Shown here one piece after another: positions 1 through 55,540 of a stretch of DNA of 64,000 bases (the first letter of the stretch is position 1; each line of letters begins with the position of its first letter). The translations under genes were made by a program, and so were the position numbers. Under the pieces are notes generated by a model. It had not been told where the DNA came from. It ran no database searches and worked only from the letters and a program-made list of their open reading frames with translations. Source of the DNA: Larus michahellis (taxonomy: Eukaryota; Chordata; Aves; Charadriiformes; Laridae); assembly GCF_964199755.1 (NCBI RefSeq), contig NC_133911.1, positions 2,011,001 through 2,075,000 on the forward strand, given 5' to 3'.

Positions 1-8337
<8,337 letters not shown>

Positions 8338-8414
8338 GCCCCGCCGCCCCCCAAAAATCCCCCTCCAGCTTTAAATGGCTGCCCCACGTACGGCCGCTGT
8401 ACGACGCCTGCGGC

Positions 8415-8420
8415 AATAAA
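8415..8420 (+). promoter_or_regulatory. SH2D5: SH2D5 polyadenylation signal (AATAAA)
   Basis: A canonical AATAAA 78 bases after the SH2D5 stop codon, followed within 30 bases by GT-rich sequence. It implies a very short 3' UTR. Confidence 0.8.
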
Positions 8421-8479
8421 CGGCTGTCGTGCCACCGGAGCAGGGGTCTGCTGGCCAAATGGTGTTCCCACTAGCCCGC

Positions 8480-10850: not shown

Positions 10851-10859
10851 GCGCGGTCG

Positions 10860-11519
10860 CGCGGCCCGAGGGGATGGGGCGAGGGGGCGGGGCCTCGCGC
10901 CAACGCGGCCCCGTCGCCGCGGCAACGGCGTGTGTTCGCTCCGCGCACGCGCCGGGGCGGCGGGTGCTTCCCGCCGGACCGGGCGCTCCTCGGCTCCCGG
11001 CGTCTCCACGCAGCTCGCCTCGCCTCGCCTCGCCTCGCCTCCCCTCCCCTCCCCTTCCCTTCCCTTCCCCTCCGCGCCCTCGGGCTTGCCCCGCACCTAC
11101 GGGTTTACCTCAGGTTTCCCCTCGCGCGGGCCCCCTTGGGCTTGTCCCGGCTTCCCCAGCGTTACCTCAGGCTTTCCCGCCCGCAGCCTCCCCTCGGGTG
11201 TCCTCCGGCCGGCCTGCCCTGGTTCCCCCTCAGACTTATTCCAAGCCTTCCCCTTTCCCTTCATCCCTCCCAAGCTTTTCTCCTCCTTAGTCTCCCCTTC
11301 TCCCGCAGCCATTCGCGGCCCCCGTTCCTCGCGCCAGGTTGCGGGAGGCCCCTTCCCCTCGGTGCCCCCAGCAAGCGGTGAGGGCTCCACCCCACCGAGG
11401 GGCGCAGGCTCCGGGGTCAGGCTTGCCCCAGCCTTCCCACAGGCCTACTCAGGCCCCGATGTCCCCCCAGCCCCTCTGAGTGAGCCCACCGAGTGTGGGG
11501 TTGAGCTGGGCCTTGAAAC
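10860..11519 (+). promoter_or_regulatory. KIF17: CpG-rich promoter / 5' UTR region of KIF17
   Basis: Non-repetitive GC- and CpG-rich sequence between the 39-bp array and the KIF17 start codon, including GGGGCGGGG at about 10880-10890. At 11014-11073 lies a pentanucleotide tract, CTCGC copies turning into CCCTC and CCCTT. No TATA box is evident, as is common for CpG-island promoters. The transcription start cannot be fixed from sequence. Confidence 0.55.
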
Positions 11520-29581: not shown

Positions 29582-34281
<4,700 letters not shown>

Positions 34282-34558
34282 GCTCCCTGTGGGAGGAACG
34301 GCTTGTTCCCCGGCACCACTCGGGACCCCCGTCCGTAACCGTGTGAGGACTGGTAGGTGCCAGAGACGCTGTGGATTTGTGTTTTGGTCTTTTTATTTTT
34401 ACACGTTGGGGGGATTAATAGGAACGAAAATGAAATTTTGGGGGGAAAACTGTCACCGAAGCATCTGCAAACCTGGAGCCGTGACGCGGATGAGTTCGCG
34501 CTGTTTGTCTCGCCCCGCCGTCGGGATGATTTTGGTTGGAGATTCGCTGCCTTTTTGA

Positions 34559-34564
34559 AATAAA
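34559..34564 (+). promoter_or_regulatory. DDOST: DDOST polyadenylation signal (AATAAA)
   Basis: AATAAA 278 bases after the DDOST stop codon. It is the only good signal between the stop and the DDI2 promoter. Confidence 0.8.
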
Positions 34565-35089
34565 GTCTCGTTCCTCTCCTGGGTGGAAGCGAAATGAATT
34601 CACCGCCTGGGGCTTTCGGCTGTGTCCCCCGGGGACGTGTCCCCACATCACCCTCGCGGCTCAGGGTGTTCGTGGGGGGGCTGTGCGGGAACAGTCGGAC
34701 GACGCCGAGGCCGGAGCAGCCGAGAGGCAAAATGGGGAGCCTGGGGCGTGCAGAGGTGCTGGTGGTGCCCCGAAAACCACCCCGAAGGGTCCCCAGAGGC
34801 ACAGCGAGGAAGACGGGGCACCCCAAAGGCCACACTCTGCCCCAAAAAGCAAAGAGGGGGGTTCAGGGACACCCCAAAAGTGTCACCGAGGGTCTTGGAG
34901 CCCCCCAAAATGCCCAGGGAGGGGTGTGGGGAGGACAACGCAGCCGGAAGACGCGATGCTGGGAAAACCGGGGTGACACCGAGGGGCCGAAGGAGGGGCG
35001 GACATGGAGCGAGCGGCTTTCGGGGTGCGCCGGGGCTGTTTTGGGGTGAAAGACGGGGAAATGGAGGGCTGCGGGGGCGAGGATCCCGC
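34565..35089. other. DDOST-DDI2 intergenic spacer
   Basis: Compact GC-rich spacer with degenerate CCCCAAAA / GGGGTG motifs at about 34770-35060. Open frames cross it on both strands, but none has recognisable homology. No gene seen. Confidence 0.6.
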
Positions 35090-35277
35090 GGGGCGAAGGC
35101 GGGGAGGGGGCGCAGGCCCCGCCCCCTCCCGCCGGGCCCCCCGCTGATTGGTCGAGCGGCCCCGATTGACGGCCGGCTCCCGACCCGGCGGGGCGGGCGC
35201 TTTGCGACGGCGGTGCTTGACGGCGGCGGCGGCACTTGGCGGCGGCGGGGGCCGGTGGCGGAGGCGGCGGGTCGGCC
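35090..35277 (+). promoter_or_regulatory. DDI2: DDI2 CpG-island promoter / 5' UTR
   Basis: Extremely CpG-rich, with GC boxes (CCCCGCCCCC near 35118), one inverted CCAAT box (ATTGG at 35147-35151) and GGC triplet runs (35220-35250) directly before the DDI2 start codon. TATA-less. Confidence 0.6.
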
Positions 35278-38200
35278 ATGCTGCTCACCGTGTTCTGCCT
35301 GCGCCGCGACCGCAGCGAGCTCACCTTCTCCCTCCAGGTGGACGCCGACTTCGAACTGCAGAACTTCCGAGCTCTCTGCGAGCTGGAGTCCGGTATCCCG
35401 GCGGCCGAGAGCCAGGTCAGGCCCTGCCCGCCGACCGCCCCCCCCCCCCCCCGCCGTGAGGAGCGGGAGGGGCCCGGGCCTCGCCCTCCGCCCCGGGTCT
35501 GGGGTCCCCTGGGCCGGGATCGGCTTTGTCCCCCCTTCAGCCCCCGGGCCCTCCGCCCCGCCGCCTCCCCGAGCTCGGGGGTTATTTGGGGGGGCGCCCT
35601 GTCTGGGTTCTGGGGAGAAACGCGTCCTTTTTCCCCTCAAAATCCTCCCCTTCCCCTCAGGAGAGAGTTCCGGGTCTCCGGTGACTCGATGTCTTACCGG
35701 GGTCCCTCCGGGAAAGGTTCGGTCTGTTCCCGCGGTGGAGCTGAAAACGAGAAAAAAAATTGGGGGGTTTTATTGAGTTTTCAGAGGAATTTGGTGTTTT
35801 AAGTGGGGAAGGGTTTGGATCGAGAGGAATGGGAGTCGGAGAGCGGGGAAGGTGGCGGCCGACGGTCCCCTCACACCCCGGGGAACGAGGCTGAAACCAT
35901 TCCGGAAAGGGTTTATTGATCAGATAAAATTCCTGTCTGCGTCTAAGGTGGAAAAAGGCTGGTTGAGGCTTTTTTCCCATCTTTTTTTTTTCGTACAGGT
36001 GCGGGGAGCGAACGGTGTGTCCGCCGGGTTCCCCCAGCAAAGAGCCGAATTCGGGGCTCGCTCGTCGCCAGCATGCCAGCACACACGGCGTGGGGGCGGC
36101 TCTCCTCCGTCTGTCCGGCCGTCTGGGATTTACTCACTGTTTTGGGTTCAGTCCCACTTTTATTTTCCTTCCTTTTTTTTTTGTGAATTTTACCAGTTTG
36201 TTAGTGTAGGGGGGTTGCGTTGCAGGACAGGGCGATGTCGGCTCCTTTTCTCGGGGCGCTGGCTGCGCCTGGGGAGTTTTGTGGCGGTGGCTTTTTACTT
36301 CCTGAGCCTTTTCCGAGTTGAAATTAATAAAATATTTTTCCAGTCAAGCGAATATTAGTCAGCGATGGAAAAAGGGCTGAGGTGGATGTCTTCCCTCACT
36401 GAGCAGGTTCCTGACGCCTCCCCCGCGGTGTTTTGCTTTACCTTTGCCTTCGCCGAGCCTTTTATTTGGGGACGAGGGGTTGGTTTTGAGGGGGAAGCGG
36501 TCTCCAAAGCAGGGGTAGAAAATCAAGGTGAGGTGGATTTTCCTTTAGGGGGAAAAAACCTCTTGATTTTTGGTAGGTAGAAAGAGAGAAACCACCTCAC
36601 ACAAAGGTTCCCTTCTGCTGCGCTCCAGCAGAGCCCCCCCGTGTCTGTGTGGCAGCCGCCAGAGAGGCACCCACGTTCCCTGCTGGGAACGGGGACAACC
36701 TCTACACGTGGGACTCTGCGAGCACACAGTGGCTCCTATACGTCTGGGTGTCTGGAGCGTAAACTCCTCGTCGTCAGCTTTGTCCCCGGTGTGTCAGAGC
36801 AACCCCTCAGCTCTGGGTCTGTTTTAGGACAATGAGGGGTCAGGGATTTTTCTGCTTATATTTCGCTGGGAGTTAAACTGCTGCGGAGTTTTGTGATTTT
36901 ATCGGCCGCAGGTAACAGGGATCAGCGCTGCGCTTTTTGTAGCCACCTCTGCTTCCCTTCTGCTCACCCATCTGCCGTTTATGCATCGTCTTGGTTCCTT
37001 TCTTTTAATGTTTTCTAGCCATGTGTTTATTGTTCCTTTCTCTCCTGTTTCTACCCAGTGTTCGTGAAGTGTTTTGAGGACCTTCAGTGGGGAGAAAGTT
37101 CTAAAAATACAAGTTATCGGTGAAGCAGCTTGGTGTGTAGAACGATTTTGCGTGCTTAAACCATCCTCCACAAATAGGCAGTGTTACATTTACCAGACTT
37201 GGTGGTTTACTGCTGTTTTTCCATAACCAAGGCCCACGTTGTGTTAAAGGGGTCACGCTGGCACAAGAGAGGATTAATTTAATAGTAAATGTGTAGCGTG
37301 GAGCGAACCAGTGCTGTGTGTTAATCCCAGTCTTATTTTCTGCTGTTTTGTGGAATTCATTCCGGGTGCTGCAGTTTGGGGTGGAGGCGAGCAGGGGGCT
37401 GCGAGGTGTCTGAGGAATGGCTGCGGTCACAAAGTGGGGAGGGCGGCGTGAGATAACGGGGATGGCCGCTGCCGGGGTGCGGAGATAAGAGGAGCTGGGC
37501 AAGGAGAGGGGAAATAATTGGGCTCGCTGCGGTTTCCTCCACGTGTCAAGGCGGTGGCTTTTCTGGAGAGGGGTCAGGGAGGATCTGGGCAGAACCGTGT
37601 TCTTCTGGCAGCACTGTTTATTTCCTTCGTTTCTCTTTCTTTCTGCGCCGTACATCTCCCATCCTTGGCTGTGCACAGGAAGATGTAACGGGTTCTGAGT
37701 TTGCGTTGATTTACGGTTGCTGGTCATATCTGGTGTTCTTGATGGGGGTTTCTCGCTCCATAAACAGGTTCTACCCTACGGCATCGTGCAAAATGCAGCT
37801 GTCGTGCGGTATCAATGCTTGCATCCCTGCCCAGGTCACCTCCAGAAGAGCCCGTGTCCGGTACCTGGCCAGCCTTCTAAAATATGCTACAAACCAGATA
37901 ATCAAAACGCAGCAAAATTAAATCAGTTTGTTTTAACAGCAGAGCGGAATGGGTCAAAAGTATATTAAGCCGTGCTGCTAATGGATGTAGCGTGAGCGCC
38001 GAGCGCTTAATTCATTGTCTGAGGTGTTAAGGCCGAATGCTCATAAATCCAATCCCAGCAAGACGACAGAGGTAAAACCTCACTTAAACTGATTAACTTG
38101 TCTCTTCCAGAGTGTCTGCGCAGGGAAACTGCCATTTAAGATTTGGGCTTGCAGCTGGGATTTATTACAAGCTTGCTTTCTCTGCGGGCAGCAGCGTTAC

Positions 38201-41200
38201 TGAGTCAGGCCGGGTGGGACGCGTCCGGTAACGTGAGAGGATGCACTGGGACTCTTCCCGTCACACGCTAGCCTTAATTATACCGGTAATGTCTTGCAAA
38301 CCGCCAGAGCAGAGACTGTGCGCCTTAATAGAGCTTGCAAACGGACCTGTGTTTGCACCCAGTCTGGCGCAATAGCGCTGAGGCTGTTAAATGTGTGGCT
38401 GATGAGAAGGTAGGAAGCTCGTGCTTGTTCCTAATCGCGTATGTTTCTCTCCTTCTGATGGCTCTGGTTGCTGTTGTACATGGTTCTTATTATTTTTGCT
38501 TCTTCTGTCTTGTCTTACTATGGCACCACCACTCTTCCAGTGCATTAGTGGGATTGTCTGTAATATTTCTGAGTAGCTGCATTAAAGCAGGGAAAGTCTG
38601 TAGCGTCTTCCAGTCCTTAAGACGTGTAGTAATTGTATTTTTTGGATCTTCTTTTTGGATCTGCTACGTGCGATAGCATCGAGTAGAGCCATAGCCCGTC
38701 CAGGCAAGGACTGTGAAAGCTTCTCCCACGCGGCTTTGCCAGTCCCGACCTGCGGCAAACCTGTTGTTGCTGAACCAGCCTTTTCCAGACCCAGAGAGAC
38801 GCGGGTCTTGCTAAACGAGGTGGTAAACGTGAAATTCAATCGTATGCCTGACGGGTTGAGGCTGAGTTCTTTGGCGTTTCTTGCTTTGGACTCCTGCCAG
38901 GGGTAGGAGGCTGCTGAACCGATCTGCCCGGTCTCATCGTGCTCCCATGAAGGCACAGAAACCTTCACGTTTAGCAGATACCATTTCTGGGAACTTCTGT
39001 TCCCATAAAGCATTTCTTTCTTTATTTTCATTTTTTTGGCTTCCTGCGATTTAGGACATCTGTAGGTATTACAGATCTAATGTTAACAGAAATATTCCCA
39101 TGGTGATTATTCCTTTTTATCTCAACATGGTTTTATGTTTAATCTGCGGACCCCTTGTTAAGTCAGGTTATCATAATAGAGAATGATGTGACTTTGTGTT
39201 TTATAGTCAAAAGAAATGAATTCCCTGCCATGGACTGACTGCAGGCTCGGAAGTGGTGTCTTTGGGTGCTGAACCTTCGAGCCTGGATAGAGTTACATCA
39301 CTGAAGTAAACTGGAAATCACTAAGCTAATCACTGAGGTCCCTGTAAAACTGGTTATTCTGGGGAACGGTGTTGTTGGGAAAAGGCAGAGATCATAGATA
39401 TTGGACTGGATCATCCATGGATCTACCCTGACGGACACTGCCTGCACGTGTGCAGTCGGTCCTTGGTCAGTAGGTGCTGATGTGGGGAGAGATAACGCTG
39501 TAGGAGACGTCTGTGACTTGTGTAATCGTAGAGATTGGATGTTGGAAACGTGTGGCAAACAGCCCTGGAGCAAGGCTTGCTTTCTTCTCAAACTCCTGGC
39601 CTCTAATTAAGAGAGACCAGCCCTTCTCCAAGATGCTGAGTTTCGAGAAACCATTGCTGGGTTTCGGTAAGACCGACTCTGTGTCATTGTCCAACCGCTT
39701 ACCTGTTGAGGTCTCTCTGTGCCTGAGGTAGAGGTGCTTTGGCGGGGCCTGCCCGTGGCGAGAATTGCACGCCTTCCCTTCTGAAGCTTGAGATGGGTCC
39801 AGAGGATTTACTGGAACACTTTCATTAAAAAAAAAAAAAAAAAAAAAAGGCAAGATGTCTGCTTTGTCACGCGCGGTGTTTTTCACTGCACTCTCTCCAT
39901 GAACAGATAGTCTATGCGGAGCGGCCTCTAACCGACAACAACAGATCTTTGGCCTCCTATGGCTTGAAAGACGGGGACGTGGTGATCTTGCGACAGAAAG
40001 AGACCGTAGAGCCGCGGCCCTCCATCCGCTTCCCAGGTGAGAAAGGATTTGTGCTAACTTCTGCTCTTAGAGCATCCAAAGATCTTGATATTTATCAAAC
40101 ACCAACTCTGTCTCTTCTCAGTCTCCTTTAGCACCTCGCTGGGCAAAACACTTAGGAAGGAGAGCGGCTAGGGATGAGGCAGGGGGCTTTTAAAATTGGC
40201 TAAAGGGCTTGTTATTTAATGTTTTTTTTTTTTAATTCTAAGGAAGTGAATGCTATTTTACTATTCTTTTGGGGAAATACAGAGAAAGTGAGGAAGGTAA
40301 CTGGTTCAGAACTAAAGGTGTGTGACTTTTCATACGACCGCTGGTTCCCTTCCCGCTCGGTGTAATGGTGCAATGATCTGCAGTCTGTGCGGCTCCGGCA
40401 CGATAAAAAGGCTGTTGCGATGCGCGCTGTGAATCTGTACCGTGACAGATACCCAGAAAACACGCCTCTTAACGAACCCAGTTACGCAATTGTGCGTACA
40501 TGCGAAGGACTCCTCAGATAACATCTGAGTGGAGCCCTGCTCCTCTGTCCTGCCTTCTGCAGCAATTCCTAGCAATTCCTCATCATAAAATATCGCTGGC
40601 GAAGAAGGTACCGCTGGCTGAGAAGGGCTTGGGAGCGTTGCTTGAGGTCCTCATCCTCCTGCCTCAGCTGGAGGATTGGTGCCTGCAATGCAGGTCTGCA
40701 GAAATGGTACTTTTCTTTTTTTTTCCCCCCTGCTTTTTTTTTTTTTTTAATCCGGGAGATTCAGAAGTGCCTTAGAGACGCTGGGTTTAGCCTCACGATC
40801 CCCCCGTGTGGTATTCACGTTTGTGAAGCTGGAAATAACTAGTCTGCGATTCAGTCAGTGCATTTCAGGGGATAAAAACTGGGCCAGATAGAAGGCTAGA
40901 GCAGTTACAGAAATACACGCTAGCATTCCTAACCCACTAACCCAAGCACGTGGCCATGCTTCCAACGTGAATTGCTGTTTGCAGAAAACAGTCTAATACT
41001 GTAGCATTAAGAGCGGCTCATCCTTCCCGCGGTTTTTCCACTGTGTTTTTCACGCAGAATTGTAAATGTGAAGCGCCGACACCTCTGACTTTTTTTCCCT
41101 TCAAGGTCTGCCGAGGATAGACTTCAGCAGCATCGCGGTTCCTGGGACGTCCACTCAGCAGCACCAGCCACCAGCACAGCGAATTCGCCCGTCACCTCCC

Positions 41201-44200
41201 GATGCGCCTTCGTTCCCTCAGGGTTTGGACAATCCGGCGCTGCTACGGGAGATGTTGCTTGCGAATCCCCACGAGTTGTCCCTGCTGAAGGAACGCAATC
41301 CACCCTTGGCAGAGGCGTTGCTCAGTGGAGACCTCGGTAAGTTGGGTTATTAATCAGCGGGAGGTGGCTTTAAATCTGTTTGAGCTCAGTTCTACTAAAA
41401 GGCGGGCACAGGTTTTTAACTAGCTGGGATGTTCGCTGCCAGCTCATTGACGATGCTGAGAAATAGTGTGGGTTAGGAGTACTCAAGGCAGAGTTCCTCG
41501 CTTAACAAGACTGTTTCTTGCAAGCTGGGAGTATTTCTCCTGCTTGGCTTCTTTAATATCCTATCTCCCCCGCTTTGAAATAGCGGATGCACAGATAAGT
41601 CGAGTTTCTATGAATGGCTCAGCTCCCAATTTGTATGTGAAGACTCCCTGAATTCATGTTTTCCAGTAACAGCGTTGTGTTTGCTGCATCCCAGAGGCCA
41701 CTGAGACCTCAACAGAGAGCAGTACGCCAAAAAAACAACTCTATCCCTAACGGTTAGCTGCTATGGAAGTGGACACCAGAAAGGGAGAGGAAAAAGTAAA
41801 TGGTGCCTTTCGGGAACTTTTCCAGTAGCAGTAGTAATAAATGTTTAAGCCTGTTAATCTTGAAGGTGTTCACATATTTTGGGCACAGTTGGAGTCCGGT
41901 ACCGTGTCCTTCGCTTCCTCTGCAGGCGAGCAGCTGATGTTGGTCCCTCATTCTTCACGTAATGAAAGCGTTGAACTCTAGTGTCCGTTCAGTATGAAAA
42001 CAAGGTGGTGGTTTGAGCGTCAGAGGATGCGCTTCCAAACCTCTGCAAGACCTTTAGTTAGAAAATAAATCCTGTTGAGTTTGGGGAAATGAATGAAGAG
42101 GAGCTTCTAGCAGGAGACCTTTTTTCTTGTTTCAGGGGTACATCATAGTGTTTTCTCTCAGTCAAAGGAAGCTAGAAAGGAACTTGCATGGATATTTTTG
42201 GCCTATTTCATTTTTTCATTTTTACTTTAGCTCGTATCCAGAGTTCAAGCCATGTCCTTTGCGCTGTCAGGCTTTTCACACCTCTTGTGAGCGCTGCGTC
42301 TGTGGTGCAGTAGGGAAATTGTTCCCATCACCTTGAGAAGATGTGCTGCAGCTGGCACAGGAAACGAGAGGTTAAGCCCAAGACACCCAGAACTGGCTCA
42401 TCTGCTGCTCTGTCTTGCCTTCTTATGCGCATTGAACTTTGATTCAGGTGTGCATTTTTAGTCCCAAATCGCCGCAGTGGGCTGTGAGAAGGAAGCGGGG
42501 TTTGATCTGGTCATGCTCTCATCATTCTGTACGGCTGCTGTCGGTATTCGGGCACAGATCCAGTCCAGCTCTGGCTCCGATGCCCAAATATACACATAAA
42601 TACGTGCCATGTGACTGTGCTGGATGCACTGCAAGTACTTTAGAAGGCACCTGCTACGCAGAAACCTAATTAAAAAAAATAATAATAAATAAGTAAAAAA
42701 CAAATAAGAAAACATACACAGTGCCTTCCCAAACATGTAACAGCCTTTGAGCCAGAGAGCTTCTTCATGGGAACTGCATTTCTGGAAGCAAACCCACAAT
42801 CTTCTGTGTTTACAGAACTCAATTTATTGCCAAGTCCTTTTGGGAACGTATGTGATCAAATCCAAGCAGTAAAAAAAAAAAAAAAATAATAGCCAGAGGC
42901 CATACAAAAAGCGGGGATCTAAAAACTGTGTTCTTAAAATGTGCGGCAAGACTTTGTGGAGCAGGTGTCCCGCCTGGGACCTCTTGATTTCAGTGGTAGG
43001 CATCCAGCTTTAGGGATTGTAATGTCCCTGCCTTTGCCTGCGTTGCTTGCGTTTACAGGAAGTTTTGTTGTTAGCCTTTTCACGTCTTACAGTTTTGCCT
43101 TTGCTCTTTGCTGGATCTGCAGACTGTTATTTTACTGGGGGATTGCTGAGTGTAAAACACGATAGATTTTGCAAGCTGTTCCTGTAGATGGGCCATCTTA
43201 CTGAGAGCTATGAAATCTCGCTCCTATCTGCCTGAAGCTTTTGGAAAATACACGTGCACACAAGCTTCTTGTTCGAATTGTGCAAGTTCTGTAGTCCCAA
43301 TTTCTGCTTCGGGTCTCATTTATCGGCTGGTGGTTTTTTTTTCTTGGAGTACAGCGTAGGCAATTTTTCCTGCAATAGAAGAATGAATTCCTGTTTTTGT
43401 CTCAGTTCTTTGTTTTAGATATTGTTGTCTTTACGTTTTTTCCATTTTTCTTCCATATAAAAATGTATGTGCAGGGAAATTGAGTTTGATATTGCTGAGT
43501 CTGGGTAGCAACACAAGGAGAAAGAGCTCTGTCCAGTTGCTTTTCATCTCAGCGGGTTCCCAAGTTTGCCACCGATCCTTTGAGGTCTGTCCCCGCTGCC
43601 TTCAGATGAAGCCTTTGGTGCCTGTGCTGCTGAGCCTACCCCTGAGTGCGCGCTGGCATAAAAAGAAGAGTTTGCTGTGCCAGAACTTGATTTGTAAGAG
43701 TCATTTCCAGTAAAAAGCATTTCTGTATCTCCTTGTTACTGCAGAGAAATTCACCAGGGTGTTGCTGGAGCAACAGCAGGACCGAGCCCGGCGGGAGCAG
43801 GAGAGGATCCGACTCTATTCAGCTGACCCTTTTGATCTTGAGGCACAAGCCAAGATAGAAGAAGACATAAGGTAGAGAACCAAAGCTGCTTGCGGGCTCT
43901 GGAGGTCTTCATGGTGCTTTTTTCCACAGGGTGCTTCCGTCTGTGATGCTTTTTCCTTGGAGGGTGCAAGGAATGTATTTAGATCCTGCCTTAAGATGCC
44001 CGCAGGGCAATGCTCTGAGCCACCTTTGCATGTGGGAGGGCTGGGAATTGGGGACACACAGGCACACCCCATCCTTTAGGTTGTATCCAGCTGAGCCCGG
44101 ATCATGAGGTGGCAGCACCACTGTCTATGCGTGTGATGTCCCAGAGCTCTCCAAGCTGGTCCACTCTGAAGCACTTGCGAAAGCACTTAGAGATCTTAGA

Positions 44201-47200
44201 TCCTCTTGAGCGGTGGTACTTGGGTGCCTCAGGTGTGTTTTGAACCGGAGAACTGGGCCTGTGTTAGTCTCCAAGCTGAGCCTCTGCACAGCAACGTGGC
44301 GTCATTTCTCCCAGCTGCCTTTGAGATTTGGTTTTGCTTCCTGCTAATTGTTTTGTCTCTCTGGCTGATTCCAGACTCTGAGCATCACTGCTGTCAGAAG
44401 AGATGTTCTGTAGAAATATGTTCTGCTCGTCAGCGCTCGCTCCCTCTTGCTGTCTTCCAAATGTAATTGCATTGGGCTGAGGCTGGATTTCTTAAATTGA
44501 GTGATAAATCCTTGAGTCAGAACATGACTGGTGGTTTTTTTCCTGATAAAGAAATGTCTGTCTGATACAGGCTCGTAGTTGGTCATAGTCAAAATTCATT
44601 TGTGATGTCATTCTTGCATTACGACTGACAAGGTGTTGGTGCCAGATAAATGCTTCGTTTAGCAATGCAGAAAAATACGCATTTGTAGATAGCAAAACAC
44701 CCGAGGCACAGGAACGCTTTCCTCCTTCCACAGATGAGGGGACAGATAAAGACGGTGTGTCCAAGGCTGTGCAGCTGTTGGGGAACAGTTTGGGCACCTA
44801 GCAGTCCCCAATTTCACACCCAACTTAGTTTCTTTGAACTCCTTGCTTAATTAGATGTGCTCTGCCCAAGATTGACTGGAAGCTATTGCTATTTTTTTTG
44901 AGAACACGGTTTTGCCCTTCAAGTGTATCTTAGGTGGGAGAGTGTAGAGCACAGAGAAAACGGAGTAATGGATTTGACAAGAAAACAAACTGAAGGTTAA
45001 CCGTCTGATTTGTGCTTAAATAATAAAAGACAGGACAACATGTGGCTCTGTTTCAGGAGTATATGAAGCGCGATAGACTGGCAGTAGGGTGCTTTAGCTC
45101 CCAGATGAGCCACGTCTCGGGTGCCGTTAGCCGTTTTCCTTCCCCACCAAGAAACCTTGTCTACCCATCTTGTTGTGGGAAGGCTACCACAGTACAGAAG
45201 ACGGATCAGAGAGGAGCTCGGGGTTTTTCCTCTTCCTCTACTGAGGAGGAAAAATGAAATGGCATCAAAATTGGAAGCCCTTTTCTCTTTTTGGTAGATA
45301 GAGCTGTATCGGATGCAGTCGCTACAGATACCTATCACTTCCAAGATGACTGGAGGGGCCGTGGTGGGCTTCTTGAGGGGCGTTTCTTCTGTAGGCTTGA
45401 ATTTGCAGCAAGGGCTTGTGTTCGTGGTGGGGTGTTCTCGCTGCGGTTTTGCTCATCTCCCTCCCTTCCAATATCTGGAAAGGAAAGATACCAGGGAAAC
45501 GTTGGAGGATTTTAATGTTCAGCTGCTGTGTGGGATTCCAGCATTGTAGCTACTGGCAACATCATGGTGTGCCCTCAGTGCTTTATTTTAGAGTGACTAA
45601 TAAATAACACAGGTTTTTCGCTTGCAAGTTCTCCAGGTTAACCCCGTGGCGACAGGTTTCTGTTGCAAACGGAAGGCCGTCTGATGCTGTAGTGTGAGTT
45701 AGGCAAGGTGTTGGTAGGAGCAGTCTTCATGGCCGCTGGGGAGCAACTTGATGTCTCTGGATTACGCCAGGATCGTTACTAGCAATCCCCCTGCTAAGAA
45801 GGCTATGTTTAGCTAACGAAGCAGTCTTTGTTGTGGTTTAAACACGTTGTTCGTAAGGTGAGCTGCAGCAGGTGGGATTACCAGATCTAAGGTGGAGGGA
45901 TGCTTATAAGATCTGGCTGACGAAAAGTCTGATTTTTCTCTCTCTTCTCCATTAAATTCAGGCAACAAAACATTGAAGAAAATATGACGATAGCAATGGA
46001 AGAGGCCCCCGAGAGTTTTGGGCAGGTGGTGATGCTGTATATTAACTGCAAAGTCAACGGACATCCAGTGAAAGCCTTTGTTGACTCAGGTGAATTGCCC
46101 CATTTTCATCTCTTTCTCTGCACGCTCCTCTCCCTCCCTGAGGGAGACGGTAAACGCTCCAGAAATTTTGCCCAGAAATGCCATAAGAAAGCACTGCGTT
46201 ACAAGATTTTAAAGCACCTGATTAAAACCTGAAAGCAGCCTTGTTTAAGGCGAGCAGAGCCAACTGTTGTGAGAAGCAGCGTGCGTGAGTGCTCGAACGC
46301 CCCAGATCAAGGCTCCTGTGAGAATCTCCGGGGCTGCGATGCCAGAAAGGTCACTGCCACATGTGTGTCTTATCTCATTTTACAGATGGGGGGGATTTTG
46401 CATGCCTTTAATGCTGTGCTTCCCATCCACAGCCTTAAAGGGGAAGTTCTTGGGGTTATTCCAGCTCTACAGTAATACATACTTTACCATCAGTGCTCAT
46501 CTGTGTGTATGCAGTCAACTCAGCGCAGTGGGATTCACAGGAAACCTTTATGCCCTAATGCAGTTGCTGGTGCAGTGTGGTTTCCCGGCTGCTGAGTGCA
46601 AGATCTTAAGCCCTTCCAGGAGAGAATTTAATTTGTGATGAGCTGTCAGGATTTAACACAAATTCTCTTGCTGGTAGGTGCCCAGATGACCATCATGAGC
46701 CAAGCTTGTGCTGAAAGGTGCAACATAATGAGGCTGGTAGATCGGCGGTGGGCCGGCATCGCTAAAGGTGTAGGAACACAGAAAATAATTGGCAGAGTGC
46801 ACTTAGGTAAGTACCTCTGTTCTTCTTTGGGCAGCTTTGGCGGCAGTTTGACTGCATTTCCCATAGTCTTGGCACCGAGGAGTATCTGGTTTAATGCCGT
46901 AATTGTTAAAAACTCCCGCAGAGTAAAATAAAAGTGCATCTGCGATATGTTTGTTTGTCTCGGGCACAGTAGTCTGGCTTCTGTCTCATTTAATGCTTTC
47001 TTAATGGAATTACCTTAATACTTTTAGGTGAGGGGAGTCCTCAGCTCAGAGGACGTGCTCACTCTGGATGCGAAAAACAGGGCTAATGTGAAATAGCAGG
47101 GTCTTTCCTGTTTAGGGTGGGACTGCTGGGCAGCACGAGTTGCTCGGGAAGGGTTCCACTACAGTGGAGCGTTTCATGTTCCTTTGGGAAGAGAAGGCTC

Positions 47201-50200
47201 TCTGTGCTCTTGTGCAGGTTTTCTGGATGAGAGGAGATTGTCCGTAGTGTCTAAAAAATCGATTCTCTTCACTGTTGTTGCTTTTTAGACTTGTGCTCTA
47301 ACGAGCTGTACGCAGCTCCTCTAGCTTGGAGGGTTAGATAAGCAGTACTTAAGGCTCTAGAGCAGGTCAGTTTTTAAAATAATTAACTTCTTGAGACCAA
47401 GGCAGGCCTGATAGTCCCTGGGGTTCGCAAAGGGCTAGACTTTCTGTGACCCAAACGGTACGTCAGAGCTCTGGCTTTAAGATTTGCCCAGGTTTGTGCA
47501 GACCTTTCCCAGGAGGTGGCAGAGCAGAAAGTAGATTTTTTTGCGCTGTAGCATTGCAAGGTGGTAACTTCTCTCTCCCCTGCCTTTCAGCTCAGGTCCA
47601 GATTGAAGGGGATTTCCTGGCGTGCTCCTTCTCAATCCTTGAAGAGCAGCCCATGGACATGCTTCTAGGACTGGACATGCTTAAGAGGCATCAGGTATCA
47701 AAATCTCTTTTGAAACAGCTACTGGCTCTTCCAAGTTAAGTGCTAAGTGCAATGTAAATGCCTTGGTTGTGAATGTATTGGGATTTTTCTGGGGAGCGTT
47801 GATGGTGGATTATCTTCCAGCCGGTTAGGAAAGAAGTACATACGCTACATACATCATGGATAGCTGTAGGATGTCTGGCTGCTCCCTGAAGATTTTTGCT
47901 CTGATCAAAGATGCTCAGAGCTTTCCAACTGAATGATTTATTACAAATCAAGTCACGCGGGGCCCTTTGCTTATAGCCCACTTGGCCCACTTTGCTTAGC
48001 TGCTATGAGCTGTTCCCTTTGGAGATGGATTGTTTAACCTTTTCTCTCCTTTTTCTCCGGGAATTGACTGGCTCTTATGCAGGCCCCTGATGTCTCGATG
48101 CTCTTTCACAGTGTTCAATTGATCTCAAGAAGAATGTCCTAGTGATTGGCACGACTGGCTCGCAGACCACTTTCCTCCCAGAGGGCGAGCTCCCAGAGTG
48201 TGCCCGGCTGGCTTATGGGGCCGGGCGGGAAGACGTGCGGCCGGAGGAGATTGCAGACCAGGAACTAGCAGAAGCAATACAGAAGTCCGTAGAGGAAGCA
48301 GGTACCGGGAGGAGTGCAGTGGAAATATTAATCCGCGTAGTTTTCCTGCTGACAGGATGTCTGTCAGTAGTCCCCCTTCTCAGCTCCTAGGAGATACAGC
48401 CTAACGCAGCACCAGCGAGTAAATGGTGGAGAGAAAGGGGCTTTATTCTTGCTCGTGGCCTCTAACTGCGCTTCTCTTTTCCTTTCTGCCCAGCAAAATC
48501 TGTCTGCACGAAGGCATTTGGGGGTGCTTGCTGTTTAATTTGTGCTTTCCTTGCAACTTCCTACCCGCTCTGGTTTCTTGACCTTCAAAGGTGTGGAGAT
48601 AAATGGTTGTCTCTGGCACCCGTTCACCTGGGTCGAGTTGTAGTGCCTGGTCATGGTTCAGTTGTGTGGTGTTTTAGCAGCCTTGGGTAAGGACAGCTTT
48701 GTGGAGGCTTCCGCAAATCCCGTTCTTAATAGCTGCAGCATATGAAAACAGAGGAGCTGTAGCAGTAAGCACAAATCTCTGAACAGAAGTTCATGACAAT
48801 TTTTAGAAATAGTACTATTTCAGCATTTTTTTCCTTAGAATGGTGCTTGTGCCCTCGGAAGGTGAATTGCTTCTCTTACTGAAGGTTACCGTTGCTCCAA
48901 ATTTCAAAAGCAGCAGCTGAATTCACATCCTAATATACATCATCAGCCTTGACTGTGATCTGCAAAGAGAATTTTCGCCCTCCCCGTAGATTTGCTCCCT
49001 GTGCCTCTGGAATCCGTAAGCTGCACAAGCCCAGACCGACTGGGCTACGGGAGATTTTAGTAGCTGCAAAATTCATTGAAGTGGAGATGCCAGAATAGCT
49101 GAAAGCAGAGCTATGAGCCAGATTTTCTGTTTAACTCCTCCCTTAAAAGCATATGCTTTTGACTAAAGGAAAGCTTCGTTATTTTTTTCCCTGCTATTAA
49201 CAGTGAAGCTGTGAATACCTCACAAAGTATATTCCTCAGGCCTTTTACAAAACTTTTAAAGATAACATTTTATATGCAAGTCTTCTATAAAGACTTTTGA
49301 GTTTTCCTGCTAATTTTTCCTCTGGAAGCACACAGTAAGGTTCCGTTTCCCACACAAATGCCAAAACTCTTTGCCAGGTCACGTTTAAGCTGATAAATTT
49401 GACTTCTTCCACATTTCTATTGCTATTTTTTTTAAGACTCTAGCATGCACATATTTAAAATTGAAGTGCAATAACCAGATTTAACCATATGTGTATATAT
49501 ATCTATAAAACCAGTTGTAATGCACTGAAATTTTTCTTTAACACTTCCCAATTGCTGCTTGATAGCCCAAAGAGTAAGCAGTGACTTTTGTGCAAATAAT
49601 GAAATTGTTTACACTGAGGGGAGCACAGGACTGAACTTACTGGTCCCTCTACCAGTTTTCTTCCATTCTAAGAATATAAGTTTTCCAGAGATGTAAAAAA
49701 CTTGAGAGGAATGCCTGGCTTTAATAAATCAGCAAGAAATGCTTTACGTGTTTGACTTCTAAAGCCAAATTTGAATGCTTATTAACTTCAGTTACGGCAG
49801 GTAGAGAGAAACACAAACATAGGTTTGACCTTGCCCCTGTCAGGTTTTGGCACAGCTGAAGGTCACATTCGGTAGCTTGGGCTCATGTCTCTTCATATAA
49901 CCTGGCAGAGAAAATGTGCGGATGTAAATATTAGTTCTTTTCCTGTTAAAACTGTGAACCTGATGAGGCCCGGGTTGGTTTTAGACATATCTTTCCATTT
50001 GGGGTGAGAACTTTGCAGACATCGTAGTTGGTTGGACTTAGTTCTCTGCTGAAAGGGTCAAATAAAAAGCAAACCTCAGCCCCAAATGTATCAGTCTTTA
50101 CAATAAAAGCATTTTAGTTGAGTGCTTTAAGATGAAAAGTGCCTAAAATGACTTAAGTCAAAGCTGCTTATGCACCAAATACAGTTCTAAAGACCATGTG

Positions 50201-53200
50201 GCTTTGTTCAGACTAATCAGCAGTCTACAGTTTGCCATTGACGCTGAGCCCTAGAGGAATGTAAAAGATTTATGAGAATAGGAAATCCATTTTGTGGATT
50301 CGCTTAATGCTACCCGTGCACAAAACTAAGGTAGGTCTTGCTTAGATTGACTGTGTGTAAGTCTTAGACACGTTATAAGCCTCTGGCTCACAGGCTGTAT
50401 CCTAAGATGTCAGAATACTAATGTATATTCTCTTCCAAAGCTGTAGAATCATAGAATTGCCTAGGTTGGAAGAGACCTTTAAGATCATCAAGTCCAACCG
50501 TTAACCTCATGCTGCCAAACCCACCACTGACCCGTGTCCCTCAGCACCACGTCTGCCCGGCTTTTAAATCCCTCCAGGGATGGTGATTCCACCCACTGCC
50601 CTGGGCAGCCTGTTCCGATGCTTGACGACCCTTTTGGTGAAGAAATTGTTCCCAATATCCATCCTAAACCTCCCCTGGCGCAACTTGAGGCCCTTCCCTC
50701 TTGTCCTATCACCTGTTACTTGGAAGATACCAAACCCCTCCCAGTTACACCCTCCTTTCAGGGAGCTGTAGAGAGCGAGAAGGTCTCCCCTCGGCCTCCT
50801 TTTCTCCAGGCTGAACACCCCCAGCTCCCTCAGCCGCCCCTCACCAGACTTGTGCTCCAGACCCCTCACCAGCTCCCTCGCCCTTCTCCGGACTCACTCC
50901 AACACCTCAGTCTCTTTCTTGTCACGAGGGGCCCAAAATTGAACACAATATTCACTGCTATTAGCTGCTGCTAGATGGTAGCAGGAAAACCAAGTGAAAG
51001 AACAGGAGACCGGAGAGAACACAACGCAGGACCAAGGAAGCTCAGCTCCCTGCAAGGCCTGTGTTCTTTCACAGCAGCTTGTGGTTTTGCTGCCTTCTGG
51101 TAGATGGTACAACAGAAATTGCTGCATACATCTGTAGGTTATTAACGTTCTCACTTTGAATGCACCTGGATTATTCTTGAGCTTTATTTAATCCCCCAAA
51201 GCTCACTTTAGTGAGCCTCATGATTTCTGTCGGCTGACTTGCTGGTGTTTCGACACCCACGGAAAGGCGGTGAGGTGGTAGTGGAGTCCTGGTGTGTTTT
51301 ACTGTCCTCTGGATCCTCCACGTTTGCTTCGTTTATGTCTGAGGGCTTGCCCTTTTTTGCCAACATGCTCTGTTTCCCACCACCACTGGGAAACTCTGTG
51401 ATTATGGCGGATTTACAAAACGAGCAGCAAAACGACAGTTACTTTAGGAGGAAGCGTGTTCAGGTAGTTTACCCCATAGACAGCTTTTCATGCAGACAGC
51501 TTCGATTCAAGAAAGGCACTGCCACCTCATACGCAACTCAGCCTTTTCCTAACATAGAGAGGAATTTATCCCTGATGGTGCACTTTGTGGAGAAGGGTTT
51601 GTTCCGGGTGTTAGCTGGATCGATAGCCCTGATGGGGCTGGGATTCAGCTCCTGTAGGTACCCCGGGAGGAGGAGGATAGTGGGTCTCTTAAGGATGACC
51701 CCGAGGAGTGCTTGGCAGGAGAGTAGCTACTTCTGCTGTCTAAGTGACTCCAAATCCCTGATGTCTTTGACTGATCAGACCCTTATTACCGATCCTCTGA
51801 GTCAAAACACAGTTCTACTTCCTCTCTAAGAATTGGCTTGGGAGCAGAGAGCGTGAACGTAATCCTACCGTGTAGAAACAGAAGATGATCCCGGTTTTTC
51901 ATCTGTGCCCTGTATCACAAGCCTTTTTGCCACCCTTATGAAAGATGAGCGGTCTGAAAATCTGTAGGGTAATTCTGGCTTTTTAATACTCCAGCATCGC
52001 CAAGTTGGTGTAGCTGCATTAAGACCAGATGTGCAGCCAAAAGAAAGGATTGCTCTCTGCAGTGGCTGCTGTATTTTATACCAAAGCGTATCGATCAGAG
52101 GTGCAGTATCACAGCATGTAGTGCGCTATTTTTATTTAACGGAGAATAAAAAAAACAAGTAACTGAGTTGAAAAAAGGTAGATTTCTTCTGTGGTGTGGA
52201 ACTCAAAGGAAATCCTGGCTGTACATGTCCCCCAGTCCACCTGGGTATCCATAAAAAGAGAAAGACTTAAGGTAAAACAGCGGTATATGTTTAAGACCAC
52301 TGAGTTTGGAGGCCTCTGGGAAGGGAAAGAGAACTAACGCAAGAAATCCCACAGCACAAAATCTGAATATCTGACACTGGACGGAGCAGGGCTTTAATGG
52401 AAGAACAGGCACTCTTACAGCAAAGGTCATGTTGGTGATTTAAAGAGAGCATGGGAGCTGATACGTTAGCAAGATTAGACCGTTAGCAAGATAAGTTCAC
52501 TTATTTAATCTGTCCTGATAATGAGAGCCAGTGTTTGGTGCCACTGATAGAGATCTGCAATTCATCCGTTCTCCGTGTGGAGAAGGAAACGGTGAGCTGG
52601 GTTTGACGTCTGGCTGTCTCTTTGCTCTGCTCTTCCCAGTCTCCGGCAGCAGTTCCTTTGCAGGATTTCTGCCTTTTACTCTAGGATCTTTACGCTTCCC
52701 TTTTGCAGCAAGCTGGCGTTTGCTCGCCTTCTCTTGCCTGCGATGGCACTAGCAGTTGCAAGACAATAACGAATCGTATAGAGAATTGTATAGAATCCTA
52801 TAGAATAGTGACTCGTATAGAGAGATGCCCTCTTAATTCTCATTTCCCTGAAACATGGCTCCTGAGTAACTTCAGCTGTACAGAGAACAAACGAGTGCGG
52901 TGCTAGACACACGCCTTGGGCTGCCTATATTTTATCAAGCGTGTAGTATCACCCACAGACCACTGTGCAGCGTAGATAGTACAGAACAGCCTTTAAATTG
53001 TTCTCCAGCAGAGTTATTTTTGACTTGACGTAAGGAATTTCCCAGGCAGAACCCCTTCTGGAAGGCAGCGAACGCGAGGAGCCTCCTGCTGCTCGTACGC
53101 TGGGCAGTCGGGAGGGGAGCTGCGAGGTCGCAGGACTATAACCATGCATGTGGTGTGCTCTGAATGCTAACACGAGTTTGGTGTGTTTGTTTCCTAATCC

Positions 53201-53223
53201 AAACAGAACGTCAGAAGCCTTGA
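35278..53223 (+). CDS. DDI2: Protein DDI1 homolog 2, short form
   Basis: Nine phase-consistent exons: 35278-35415, 39907-40036, 41106-41336, 43745-43871, 45962-46089, 46678-46806, 47591-47694, 48112-48301 and 53207-53223; 397 residues, close to the 399 of human DDI2, ending in ERQKP as human does. Order: N-terminal ubiquitin-like domain ([11 protein letters not shown]... to about residue 80), a helical Ddi domain ([13 protein letters not shown] through QQNIEENM), then a retroviral-like aspartic protease with the catalytic DSG motif (Asp about 250, split between exons 5 and 6) and the flap and C-terminal half ([10 protein letters not shown]). A UIM-like helix follows ([12 protein letters not shown]). 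DDI2 cleaves highly ubiquitinated substrates, notably NFE2L1/NRF1, so that proteasome genes are induced. Exon 3 uses a CAAG acceptor. Identity is very secure. Confidence 0.97.
35416..39906 (+). other. DDI2: DDI2 intron 1 (4.5 kb)
   Basis: Starts in CpG-island sequence and becomes ordinary intronic DNA. A 22-nt A run (39827-39848) lies about 58 bp before exon 2. No exon, RNA gene or clear transposon was recognised. Confidence 0.6.
48302..53206 (+). other. DDI2: DDI2 intron 8 (4.9 kb)
   Basis: Contains the CR1 copy at 50440-50968 and a small degenerate TATAGAAT-type repeat at about 52774-52823. A 196-codon open frame at 51239-51829 has no recognisable domain and is close to what chance allows. 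Nothing else seen. Confidence 0.6.
50440..50968 (-). mobile_element. CR1 LINE fragment, 5'-truncated
   Basis: Starts on + with AGAATCATAGAATTGCCTAG and GGTTGGAAGAGACC, the complement of the CR1 3' end. It continues for about 530 bp through the familiar CR1 3' region (TCCCTCCAGGGATGGTGATT, CAGCCTGTTCCGATGCTT, CTTTTCTCCAGGCTGAACAC). It inserted antisense to DDI2 and is better preserved than the DDOST copy. The 146-codon + frame across it is not a gene. Confidence 0.95.
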
Positions 53224-53365
53224 TGCATGTAGTGTGTGTTTACTGCAGCTGGAGTGGGCCACAGACCAGGTATTTATAGCCATTGGTTTATAAGTTTTTG
53301 CTACTACAGTGAAAACAGTGGTTCTCCTGTGTCCTAACTACTGCTTTCTTTCTGTCTTCTGTTAG

Positions 53366-55260
53366 AGAATAGTGACAAAGAAACTACCTCACTGGAAATG
53401 CCCTCATTACCAGCTTCTGATGGGTTTCAAAATCCAGTCCAGTCTTCAGGACTAAATTCCAAGATCTGTAATCCCACAAATCAATTACTTGATCGTTCTG
53501 TCTCTGCCCCTGCTTCAATTTGCTCATCCGAATCTAGCCTCGCAGAGCCCATTGATCCTAGAGCTGTCAAGTCTTTTGAGTCTCCAACTGAATGCCAGAT
53601 AACCCCAGAAAAAGAACATCCTCTCTTGTTACAGCATCTTTCCAATAACGCTTCCTCGGCAAATAACGACCCTTCTCCCCAGCCAGGGGAGGGAACCTGT
53701 TGCAATCCAACTTGCCTTTCACAGAAGACACTCAAAGAAACATTTATTGCTGACAGTCTAAAGGAACGTAACGCTAAAGAACAAGACCGTGGTCAGGAAC
53801 ATCCTCTGGAAGTGACAAAAGAAAATAGTTTGGCTGGCACTGCTGCTAAGCACAGGCGAAATAAAGACATATGTCTGTCTGCAGAACAGGAGCAAAAGCA
53901 TGAGCTTCCCATAGACCATCAGACATGCAAAGAACCAGAGAAGGAACATCTGGAGAAGCAAACTGAGACGACTGACCCAGAACCTCCTTGCCATGTTGGT
54001 GGGGTTGAGAAACTTGTTGTGGAAGAAGCCAGCCAGCGAGCAAATCCTCCTACGGAAACGAGAGGAGATGGACTGGAGAAAGCAAATCTTTCCTGTGCGA
54101 AAGGGGGTATCCAAATGTCAGCCTCCTGTAGCTGTGTGCATACGGAAGCCTTCATGGAAATAGATGGAGCTGAGCAGTCTGTAGCTGAAGCGCGCAGCTC
54201 AACAAGCGAGCAGAAGTGGCAGGCTGAGAACAGAAGTGTGTCTGACCTGAACTCTGACACCTTTTCTATGGAGGTGGAGTCGCTAAAGTCTGCGTCCTCC
54301 TCCAGTGATCCACTTCCCACTGCTGATGTCCCGCAGTCTAAAAGCACTAGTGAAATTCCTGCCAAGTATAATGGGTTGTCTAATTTGGCAGCTGAAGACA
54401 GCTCTTCCCCCTCCAGCATCCATCAGCTGGATACGGATCCAGGAAGACCTTCAGAAGAGCCATGTTTCTCTCTAGCATCAGCCTTGAAAGAGCTGCACAA
54501 ACTCTTGATTATCAGTCGGAAAGGAGAATGTAAAATCCTTGCCTTGGAAGAAGTCTCTCAGCTGGAAATGGCTCACAGAGAGCCAGCAGCACAGCGGAAG
54601 GGGCTTTCTGAAGATGAGCAGAAAGGCTCAGATCCAGCCAGCCAGGAGGAGAGTTGTTCCTTCTGTGAGGTGAGGTCTGAAGGTGGGAGAGCAGAGGGGA
54701 AACAGCTTTGCGGTTCTGACCCAGAAAACATCAGCGCTGGCTCTATCAGATGCGTGCGGGCTGCTCTCGGAGAAGGTGCTTTGGAGAGTCACGAGTTTTC
54801 AGGTAAGAGTGATTTGGTCGTGGTGAATTCTGCAGCGACATCTGACCAGCAACAGAGCTCTGAGCAGGAGGAGGTTTTGGCAGAAGGTTATCAGAGTCCA
54901 ACTAGTCCAACTTCGGAGCAAAACGCATCTGTTTCCTCTGCCCCTGCTTCGGATGAAGGTGCACCTCAAGATACTCGGAGCCTGTTCACAGGAGCACCTG
55001 GGAGCAGCAGCAGTTCTGCTCCCGAAGGTCCGTGGCCATCGGGTGGGTGTGAGGAGCCCCTGCTGAGCCCACCAGCAGGCTATACCGGGCGTACCTCGGG
55101 TGCTTCTCCACCACCTGCTTTCCCGGCGGCTGATGTTAATCGGATCCTCAGTGCTGGTTTTACCACACAGGAAGCTCTTGAGGCTCTGGAACGAGCGGAT
55201 GGAAACACGGATCTTGCTCTTCTCATTTTGCTAGCCAAGAGTATCGTTGTTCCTACGTAA
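53366..55260 (+). CDS. RSC1A1: RSC1A1 (RS1) reading frame = alternative DDI2 terminal exon with UBA domain
   Basis: One uninterrupted frame. The first ATG (53398, MPSLPASDGFQNP) matches the start of human RSC1A1 (MSSLPTSDGF), and the 620-residue length matches its 617. Conserved islands include FMEID, SMEVES and SALKELHKLL. The last ~45 residues (ADVNRILSAGFTTQEALEAL ... LLAKSIVVPT) form a UBA-like domain. Most of the rest is acidic, Ser-rich and probably disordered. RS1 is known as a regulator of the glucose transporter SGLT1. The frame is open upstream of the ATG to an acceptor at 53364-53365 (TTCTGTTAG), and its phase matches DDI2 exon 8. Joined to exons 1-8 it gives a 1,023-residue DDI2-RS1 protein in which the RS1 Met is residue 404. 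It could also be translated alone from the DDI2 3' UTR, as annotated in human. Confidence 0.93.
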
Positions 55261-55534
55261 CTGCAGAAGAGGTAGCTGACTGGGGTGTCTTTTCTTTTAA
55301 AGGACATATCAAAATTATACACCATAATGTACAAGCAGAATGTTGAGCCAGATTTTTCGATTACTTGCAGCCAAAGTAACTTGTCTCTTCTGTTTTACGT
55401 GTTAGATTTGGCCTTTTAAAAGAAAGAAAACGTCCGAGCGTTCCGTGGACAGGATAGCTTTTAAGTATGCATACTGGGTAAAAATTAATGTTTTTATTTA
55501 AATGTACAATTTTAGAATAAGCTCCAATGTTACG

Positions 55535-55540
55535 AATAAA
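55535..55540 (+). promoter_or_regulatory. DDI2: Proximal polyadenylation signal (AATAAA)
   Basis: Canonical hexamer 275 bases after the RSC1A1 stop codon. A shorter mRNA using it would lack most of the long 3' UTR. Confidence 0.5.

Follow-up and report, generated by a model that had tools for sequence, protein, structure and literature searches.

The window analysed here, a stretch of 64,000 nucleotides (nt) of Larus michahellis (contig NC_133911.1 of assembly GCF_964199755.1, forward strand; all coordinates are positions in this stretch), contains the protease gene DDI2 followed by the reading frame of RSC1A1, and it raises the question of whether RSC1A1 is a gene of its own. The protein RSC1A1 (RS1) has been treated as a separate protein. 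Siva et al. (2016) describe it as carrying the UBA domain of Ddi1, which in their view DDI2 has lost. In papers published between 2016 and 2024, vertebrate or human DDI2 is described as lacking the UBA, and the question of how it then binds ubiquitin is discussed. We found that DDI2 exons 1–8 and the exon starting at 53366 form a single open frame of 1,023 residues, and the encoded protein has the order UBL, HDD, retroviral-like protease, UIM, a linker of ~585 residues, and UBA. Judged from gene structure and from Ddi1 descent, the RSC1A1 'gene' is very probably the last coding exon of DDI2. The predicted long DDI2 is best read as retaining the UBA that vertebrates are said to have lost. The locus is composed as follows, with database entries given by their P numbers.

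35278..35415, forward strand: DDI2 exon 1 (coding part), start of the UBL; open frame, GT donor, CpG-rich DNA at 34001-36500.
39907..40036, forward strand: DDI2 exon 2, UBL; open frame, Pfam ubiquitin at residues 16-77.
41106..41336, forward strand: DDI2 exon 3, linker and start of the HDD; open frame, Pfam Ddi2_HDD at residues 131-196 (103.3 bits).
43745..43871, forward strand: DDI2 exon 4, end of the HDD; open frame, Pfam Ddi2_HDD.
45962..46089, forward strand: DDI2 exon 5, start of the retroviral-like protease; Pfam Asp_protease (177 bits), DSGA at residue 250.
46678..46806, forward strand: DDI2 exon 6, protease; open frame.
47591..47694, forward strand: DDI2 exon 7, protease; open frame.
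48112..48301, forward strand: DDI2 exon 8, end of the protease and UIM, ending in phase 1 after G; open frame, GNN-coded next residue.
53207..53269, forward strand: likely cassette exon 9 (63 nt) with ERQKP-TGA, the end of the short form; splice signals, P0038, P0062, P0086 and P0117.
53249..53269, forward strand: piece of exon 9 behind an inner acceptor (AG at 53247-53248), which adds AGVGHRP and bypasses the stop; 21 nt in frame, P0025.
53270..53365, forward strand: intron of 96 nt between exon 9 and exon 10; donor CAG/GTATTT, acceptor TTAG.
53366..55260, forward strand: exon 10 (coding part), the 'RSC1A1 gene', with junction peptide, linker, UBA and stop; open frame.
53398..53400, forward strand: start ATG of RSC1A1, methionine 404 of the fused protein; sequence and methionine column of the alignment.
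55120..55257, forward strand: UBA domain and C-terminal tail, FPAADVNRIL...LLAKSIVVPT; Pfam UBA, hhalign to invertebrate Ddi1, three-helix model.
55535..55540, forward strand: AATAAA past the stop; another AATAAA lies at 53860 within exon 10.

All introns among exons 1–8 start with GT and end with AG. These exons encode the N-terminal UBL of the Ddi1 family (Pfam ubiquitin, 29.1 bits with a cut-off of 25.4), the helical domain HDD and the Ddi1-family protease with its D-[ST]-G active site. Exon 8 ends with ...GAAGCAG before GTACCG, and two in-frame continuations are open after it, one through the acceptor at 53205-53206 and the other through the acceptor at 53364-53365. The latter is preceded by pyrimidine-rich DNA (87% over 15 bases) and opens a frame that reads E-N-S-D-K-E-T-T-S-L-E-M-P-S-L-P... 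up to the stop ending at 55260, and the remaining two frames of exon 10 contain 16 and 52 stops. A chance open frame was rejected, with a probability of ~3.5e-14 for 631 open codons at this composition. An earlier note on this DNA had proposed that exon 8 joins 53366 after the G at 48301, that the frame runs through ENSDKETTSLE into the RSC1A1 methionine and that it stays open to the stop. Splicing and translation of the exons confirmed these coordinates, and the length that it had predicted for the fused protein was matched exactly. The junction thus holds; what the note overlooked is the short tail ERQKP-stop and the cassette exon that carries it. Joining of exon 8 to exon 10 as the sole event was rejected, as exon 9 and the inner acceptor were also found. 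We infer that in this bird exon 8 would reach exon 10 by a splice of the skipping type.

Fused proteins were counted in two protein searches, with the fused protein and a fish-like protein as queries, and invertebrate Ddi1 proteins were collected in a third; the best 120 each of 521, 1,907 and 3,491 matches were listed. All counts refer to listed entries, which include several isoforms of single species; sharks, lampreys, lancelets, amphibians and mouse are outside the sampling. With the fused protein as query, 53 entries combine the protease core with the UBA tail, 66 are RSC1A1-only, the core being absent, and in one the core comes without a recognised tail. The 53 fused amniote entries come from birds, turtles, crocodilians, a worm lizard, platypus, a marsupial and placentals (e.g. 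'protein DDI1 homolog 2 isoform 2 [Bos taurus]'). High-scoring matches among those listed include Pluvialis, 91% identical over the fused protein, and two auks, Uria and Cepphus, 92% identical over the RSC1A1 part; an eagle entry likewise reaches 91%. The fish-like query yielded 62 fused entries and 58 without the tail. Going by these protein entries, which range from ray-finned fish to mammals, the fused isoform is not peculiar to birds. One entry, P0121 (99% identity to the fish-like query), holds a fused frame of 914 residues on a contig of 2,922 nt, a size as expected of a spliced complementary DNA; a processed gene copy is the alternative.

We aligned the junction in 54 amniote sequences (the window included) and 62 fish sequences. 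The peptide E[NK]S[DG]KE[TS]TSL was observed in 50 of the 53 fused amniote entries, and a relative containing TTS in 60 of the 62 fused fish entries. Mean amniote identity to the window is 0.90 over the 11 residues ahead of the RSC1A1 methionine, 0.79 over the 17 residues from the methionine on, and 0.46-0.65 in blocks of 50 residues from residue 454. Furthermore, all 173 matched vertebrate proteins, short or fused and with the two products of the window among them, continue past exon 8 with a residue of the GNN-coded class, as a fixed phase-1 boundary after G demands (3 of 176, namely P0021, P0151 and P0205, were unmatched; the proteins are related and are thus not independent tests). The proposed in-frame fusion is therefore supported, since the junction is conserved in amniote and ray-finned fish entries and P0121 holds the fused frame.

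The UBA links exon 10 to invertebrate Ddi1. Profiles were built from 31 vertebrate UBAs and from 26 invertebrate Ddi1 UBAs (5 of the 120 invertebrate sequences were excluded by the extraction pattern). Comparison with hhalign aligned them over 47 of 47 columns (probability 98.6, E 6.9e-16), and the aligned tails read L-L-A-[KR]-x-I-x-V-P in vertebrates and L-F-A-K-S-L-K-x-P in invertebrates. The invertebrate Ddi1 profile matched the window protein with 35.3 bits (E 4.7e-7 at a database size of one million), and neither profile matched any shuffled decoy. One vertebrate protein with an unrecognised tail, P0126, was matched weakly (E 0.88). In PDB, the best single stretches for the vertebrate profile are in yeast Ddi1 (22.9 bits) and fission yeast Mud1 (~22.8 bits), whereas NUB1 heads the list at 29.3 bits solely by summing two stretches (14.4 + 12.0). 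Compared to yeast Ddi1 and Mud1, the window UBA has an Ala-Gly-Phe first loop and the linker is far longer. The predicted structure of the UBA is a three-helix bundle (mean predicted local distance difference test score 91.3), and with the profile alignment it indicates a C-terminal UBA of the Ddi1 type. A Foldseek search with this model returned mixed UBA domains (Cbl-b at rank 1, Mud1 at ranks 6-7, Ddi1 at rank 14). Structure matching was rejected as proof, with 0 of 201 matches at E 0.001.

Several observations weigh against exon 10 as the UBA-bearing end of DDI2. The window UBA reaches 20.1 bits with Pfam UBA, below the curated cut-off of 22.4, and of the 120 listed invertebrate Ddi1 proteins the vertebrate profile matched 55, with E < 1e-3 in only 13. 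In PDB, USP13 (40.0 bits) and RAD23B (33.7 bits) are matched by the invertebrate Ddi1 profile as well. In Larus michahellis, splicing of exon 8 to exon 10 is predicted from the DNA sequence. The junction motif is missing in predictions P0021, P0026 and P0092 among amniotes and P0150 and P0172 among fish, and P0036, P0152 and P0179 have extra residues ahead of it. Many fused records bear prediction-style names ("DDI1 homolog 2 isoform X1" or "RSC1A1 isoform X1"), and 56 of the 66 RSC1A1-only matches begin at the methionine. This methionine is present in 48 of 51 amniote residues (two gaps), which is compatible with a stand-alone product. Lastly, a ratio of observed to expected CpG of 0.63 at a GC content of 0.46 in 52501-53000 leaves room for a weak internal promoter.

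A UBA score alone was rejected as proof of Ddi1 origin, as the invertebrate Ddi1 profile gives USP13 and RAD23B scores similar to that of the window. The earlier note would have been refuted by a UBA that clusters with unrelated families; this was checked by profile scores only, which by themselves are not family-specific. What singles out Ddi1 is the position in the gene, the placement behind the UIM and the tail that both have in common, and these features support the identification of the exon 10 UBA as a Ddi1 UBA at the level of sequence. Together with the profile match over all columns, gene position and tail uphold the proposal that this exon carries the original Ddi1 UBA. The short DDI2 form would then be derived, as had also been suggested, because the outgroups carry the UBA.

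We next consider a stand-alone RS1 made in addition to a real long isoform, through internal initiation or a promoter at a methionine gained in amniotes. This explanation is compatible with exon 10 as the last exon of DDI2, and it is a possibility that we take seriously while leaning against it. The RSC1A1 start codon is not conserved family-wide. In favour of such a product, its retention in amniotes contrasts with M in 0 of 60 aligned fish residues (two gaps), and the ATG has a G at -3. However, among amniotes the methionine is replaced by E in Rhea (P0027), by T in the bilby Macrotis (P0100) and by L in a barbet (P0022, labelled low quality), and we found no promoter evidence in the window sequence. 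The ratio of observed to expected CpG in 53001-53500 is 0.45 at a GC content of 0.46.

A different explanation, incompatible with exon 10 as the last exon of DDI2, is that RSC1A1 is a separate gene that holds the Ddi1 UBA and that vertebrate DDI2 lost the domain. This is the published view of Siva et al. (2016). It agrees with the RSC1A1-only records and the retained amniote methionine, and RS1 has its own literature on the control of SGLT1 trafficking. Yet the open frame runs across the junction with phase and peptide kept in amniotes and fish, fish have no methionine at the start position, and the 11 residues ahead of it are better conserved than those that follow. Furthermore, DNA that is both GC- and CpG-rich occurs at DDI2 exon 1 (34001-36500), and no such stretch was flagged before the RSC1A1 exon in 41501-55500. 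We thus consider a separate gene highly unlikely. That the fused records are biologically meaningless, automatic read-through predictions of two adjacent genes would fit their prediction-style names, but we give this very little credence in view of the protein-level conservation of the junction, the domain order shared with invertebrate Ddi1 and the short contig that carries P0121.

With exon 10 read as the last exon of DDI2, the short form ends on the other continuation. The acceptor at 53205-53206 leads into E-R-Q-K-P-stop (53207-53224), which gives a short DDI2 of 397 residues. ERQKP is the tail of human DDI2 as well. The human short form has 399 residues according to Siva et al. (2016). 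The short form and the fused product are identical in exons 1–8; the short form is without the linker and the UBA and ends in ERQKP in this bird. The ERQKP piece is followed by the donor CAG/GTATTT at 53270, which scores 5.66 on a donor weight matrix, and the donors of exons 7 and 8 score lower (4.10 and 4.39). The exon 9 acceptor lies 159 nt upstream of the exon 10 start, and the exon 9 stop ends 45 nt before the exon 9–exon 10 junction. For nonsense-mediated decay a stop usually must precede the junction by 50-55 nt; this stop is thus too close. Three bird-like entries, P0038, P0062 and P0086 (longest contigs 4,776, 2,418 and 7,428 nt), start with MFTAAGVGHRP-ENSDKETT, and the budgerigar prediction P0117 starts with MGHRP-ENSDKETT. 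All four read through the exon 9–exon 10 junction and, as the window splits the GHRP and ENSDKETT codons at exactly the 96-nt intron, they look spliced. The inner-acceptor peptide AGVGHRP also occurs in the pigeon prediction P0025. Going by these signals and entries, the ERQKP piece is likely a 63-nt cassette exon, and inclusion or skipping of this stop exon should therefore select the DDI2 form. Neither AATAAA nor ATTAAA occurs between exon 9 and exon 10, and intron 8 contains AATAAA at 49723, 50061, 50102 and 52145. Tail-less fish entries end in GQH in 32 of 57 matched (among the matches listed), not in ERQKP, and the end of the short form thus differs between fish and this bird.

Compared as proteins alone, invertebrate Ddi1 (Rngo; UBL-HDD-RVP-UIM-UBA, ~420-490 residues) has the same domain order and the same type of tail after the UBA as the fused protein. 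The distance between UIM and UBA differs: the invertebrate proteins in which it was measured have 12-45 residues there and the window protein 589, which bears out the earlier suggestion that the UBA exon was enlarged. The linker falls on the disordered side of the charge-hydropathy rule, and it contains two conserved islands. The first, SLASALKELH (residues 761-770; 54469-54498), has an identity to the window of 0.87 in amniotes and 0.84 in fish. Of the fused entries, 17 of the 53 from amniotes and 60 of the 62 from fish contain the pattern [SA]LAxALxELH, and the conservation of this island is therefore read from the column identities. The second, LDRSVSAPAS (residues 434-443; 53488-53517), has identities of 0.92 and 0.75, respectively. 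It fits the mode-1 14-3-3 motif R-S-x-S-x-P as a putative site, and 73 of the 115 fused vertebrate entries contain DRSxSAP.

Of the 120 listed invertebrate Ddi1 proteins, 76 have a UIM-like motif ahead of the UBA (44 are without the pattern), compared to 11 of 6,000 shuffled stretches; the query of this search contained both UIM and UBA, and the share is thus biased. The motif is plainly present in molluscs, annelids and a hemichordate. According to Siva et al. (2016), non-vertebrate Ddi1-like sequences do not have the UIM region. These UIM-like motifs, as sequence patterns, contradict that claim, and a UIM described as vertebrate-only would have counterparts in invertebrate Ddi1.

We propose the following mechanism. 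With exon 9 included, the short DDI2 ending in ERQKP would be made and the RSC1A1 frame would lie in the 3′ untranslated region. With exon 9 skipped, exon 8 would join exon 10 in frame and yield an ancestral-type Ddi1 protein, UBL-HDD-protease-UIM-UBA, in which the UIM-UBA distance would have expanded from some tens to ~590 residues. The protease of the Ddi1 family is dimeric; in the long form, its UBAs would sit at the ends of extended, flexible linkers, an arrangement that would suit long chains of ubiquitin. We infer that the long form would bind polyubiquitin better than the short form, via the UBA on its long tether. The window UBA has AGF in its first loop in place of the common MGF/MGY, and its affinity for ubiquitin may therefore be reduced.

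The RSC1A1 protein shares its exon and its UBA with the fused DDI2, and the position taken as its start is residue 404 in that product. Much of the protein known as RS1 may be the long DDI2 isoform. A mouse with Rsc1a1 deleted is reportedly obese; this phenotype and the effects of RS1 on SGLT1 may belong to the long isoform. Only tentatively do we extend this to the proposal that vertebrates have no independent RSC1A1 gene, that RS1 biology is wholly or partly that of long DDI2 and that skipping of the cassette exon acts as a UBA switch. The descent of the UBA is already published (2016), and databases already list the fused protein; in the openly licensed literature, within its accessible text, we found no description of a fused DDI2-RSC1A1 isoform. 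Should the long isoform be translated, 399-residue constructs would cover just part of the output of the DDI2 gene, and deletion of Rsc1a1 would truncate DDI2 too.

Outside this gene, positions 1-11100 consist of dense tandem-repeat DNA (e.g. a 39-nt unit in 48 copies at 8915-10811), which gives rise to long open frames on either strand. Scanned against Pfam, six long open frames other than DDI2, among them four of the longest in this repeat DNA, matched 0 families. Within intron 8, the region at ~50440-50940 resembles a CR1-type retroelement.

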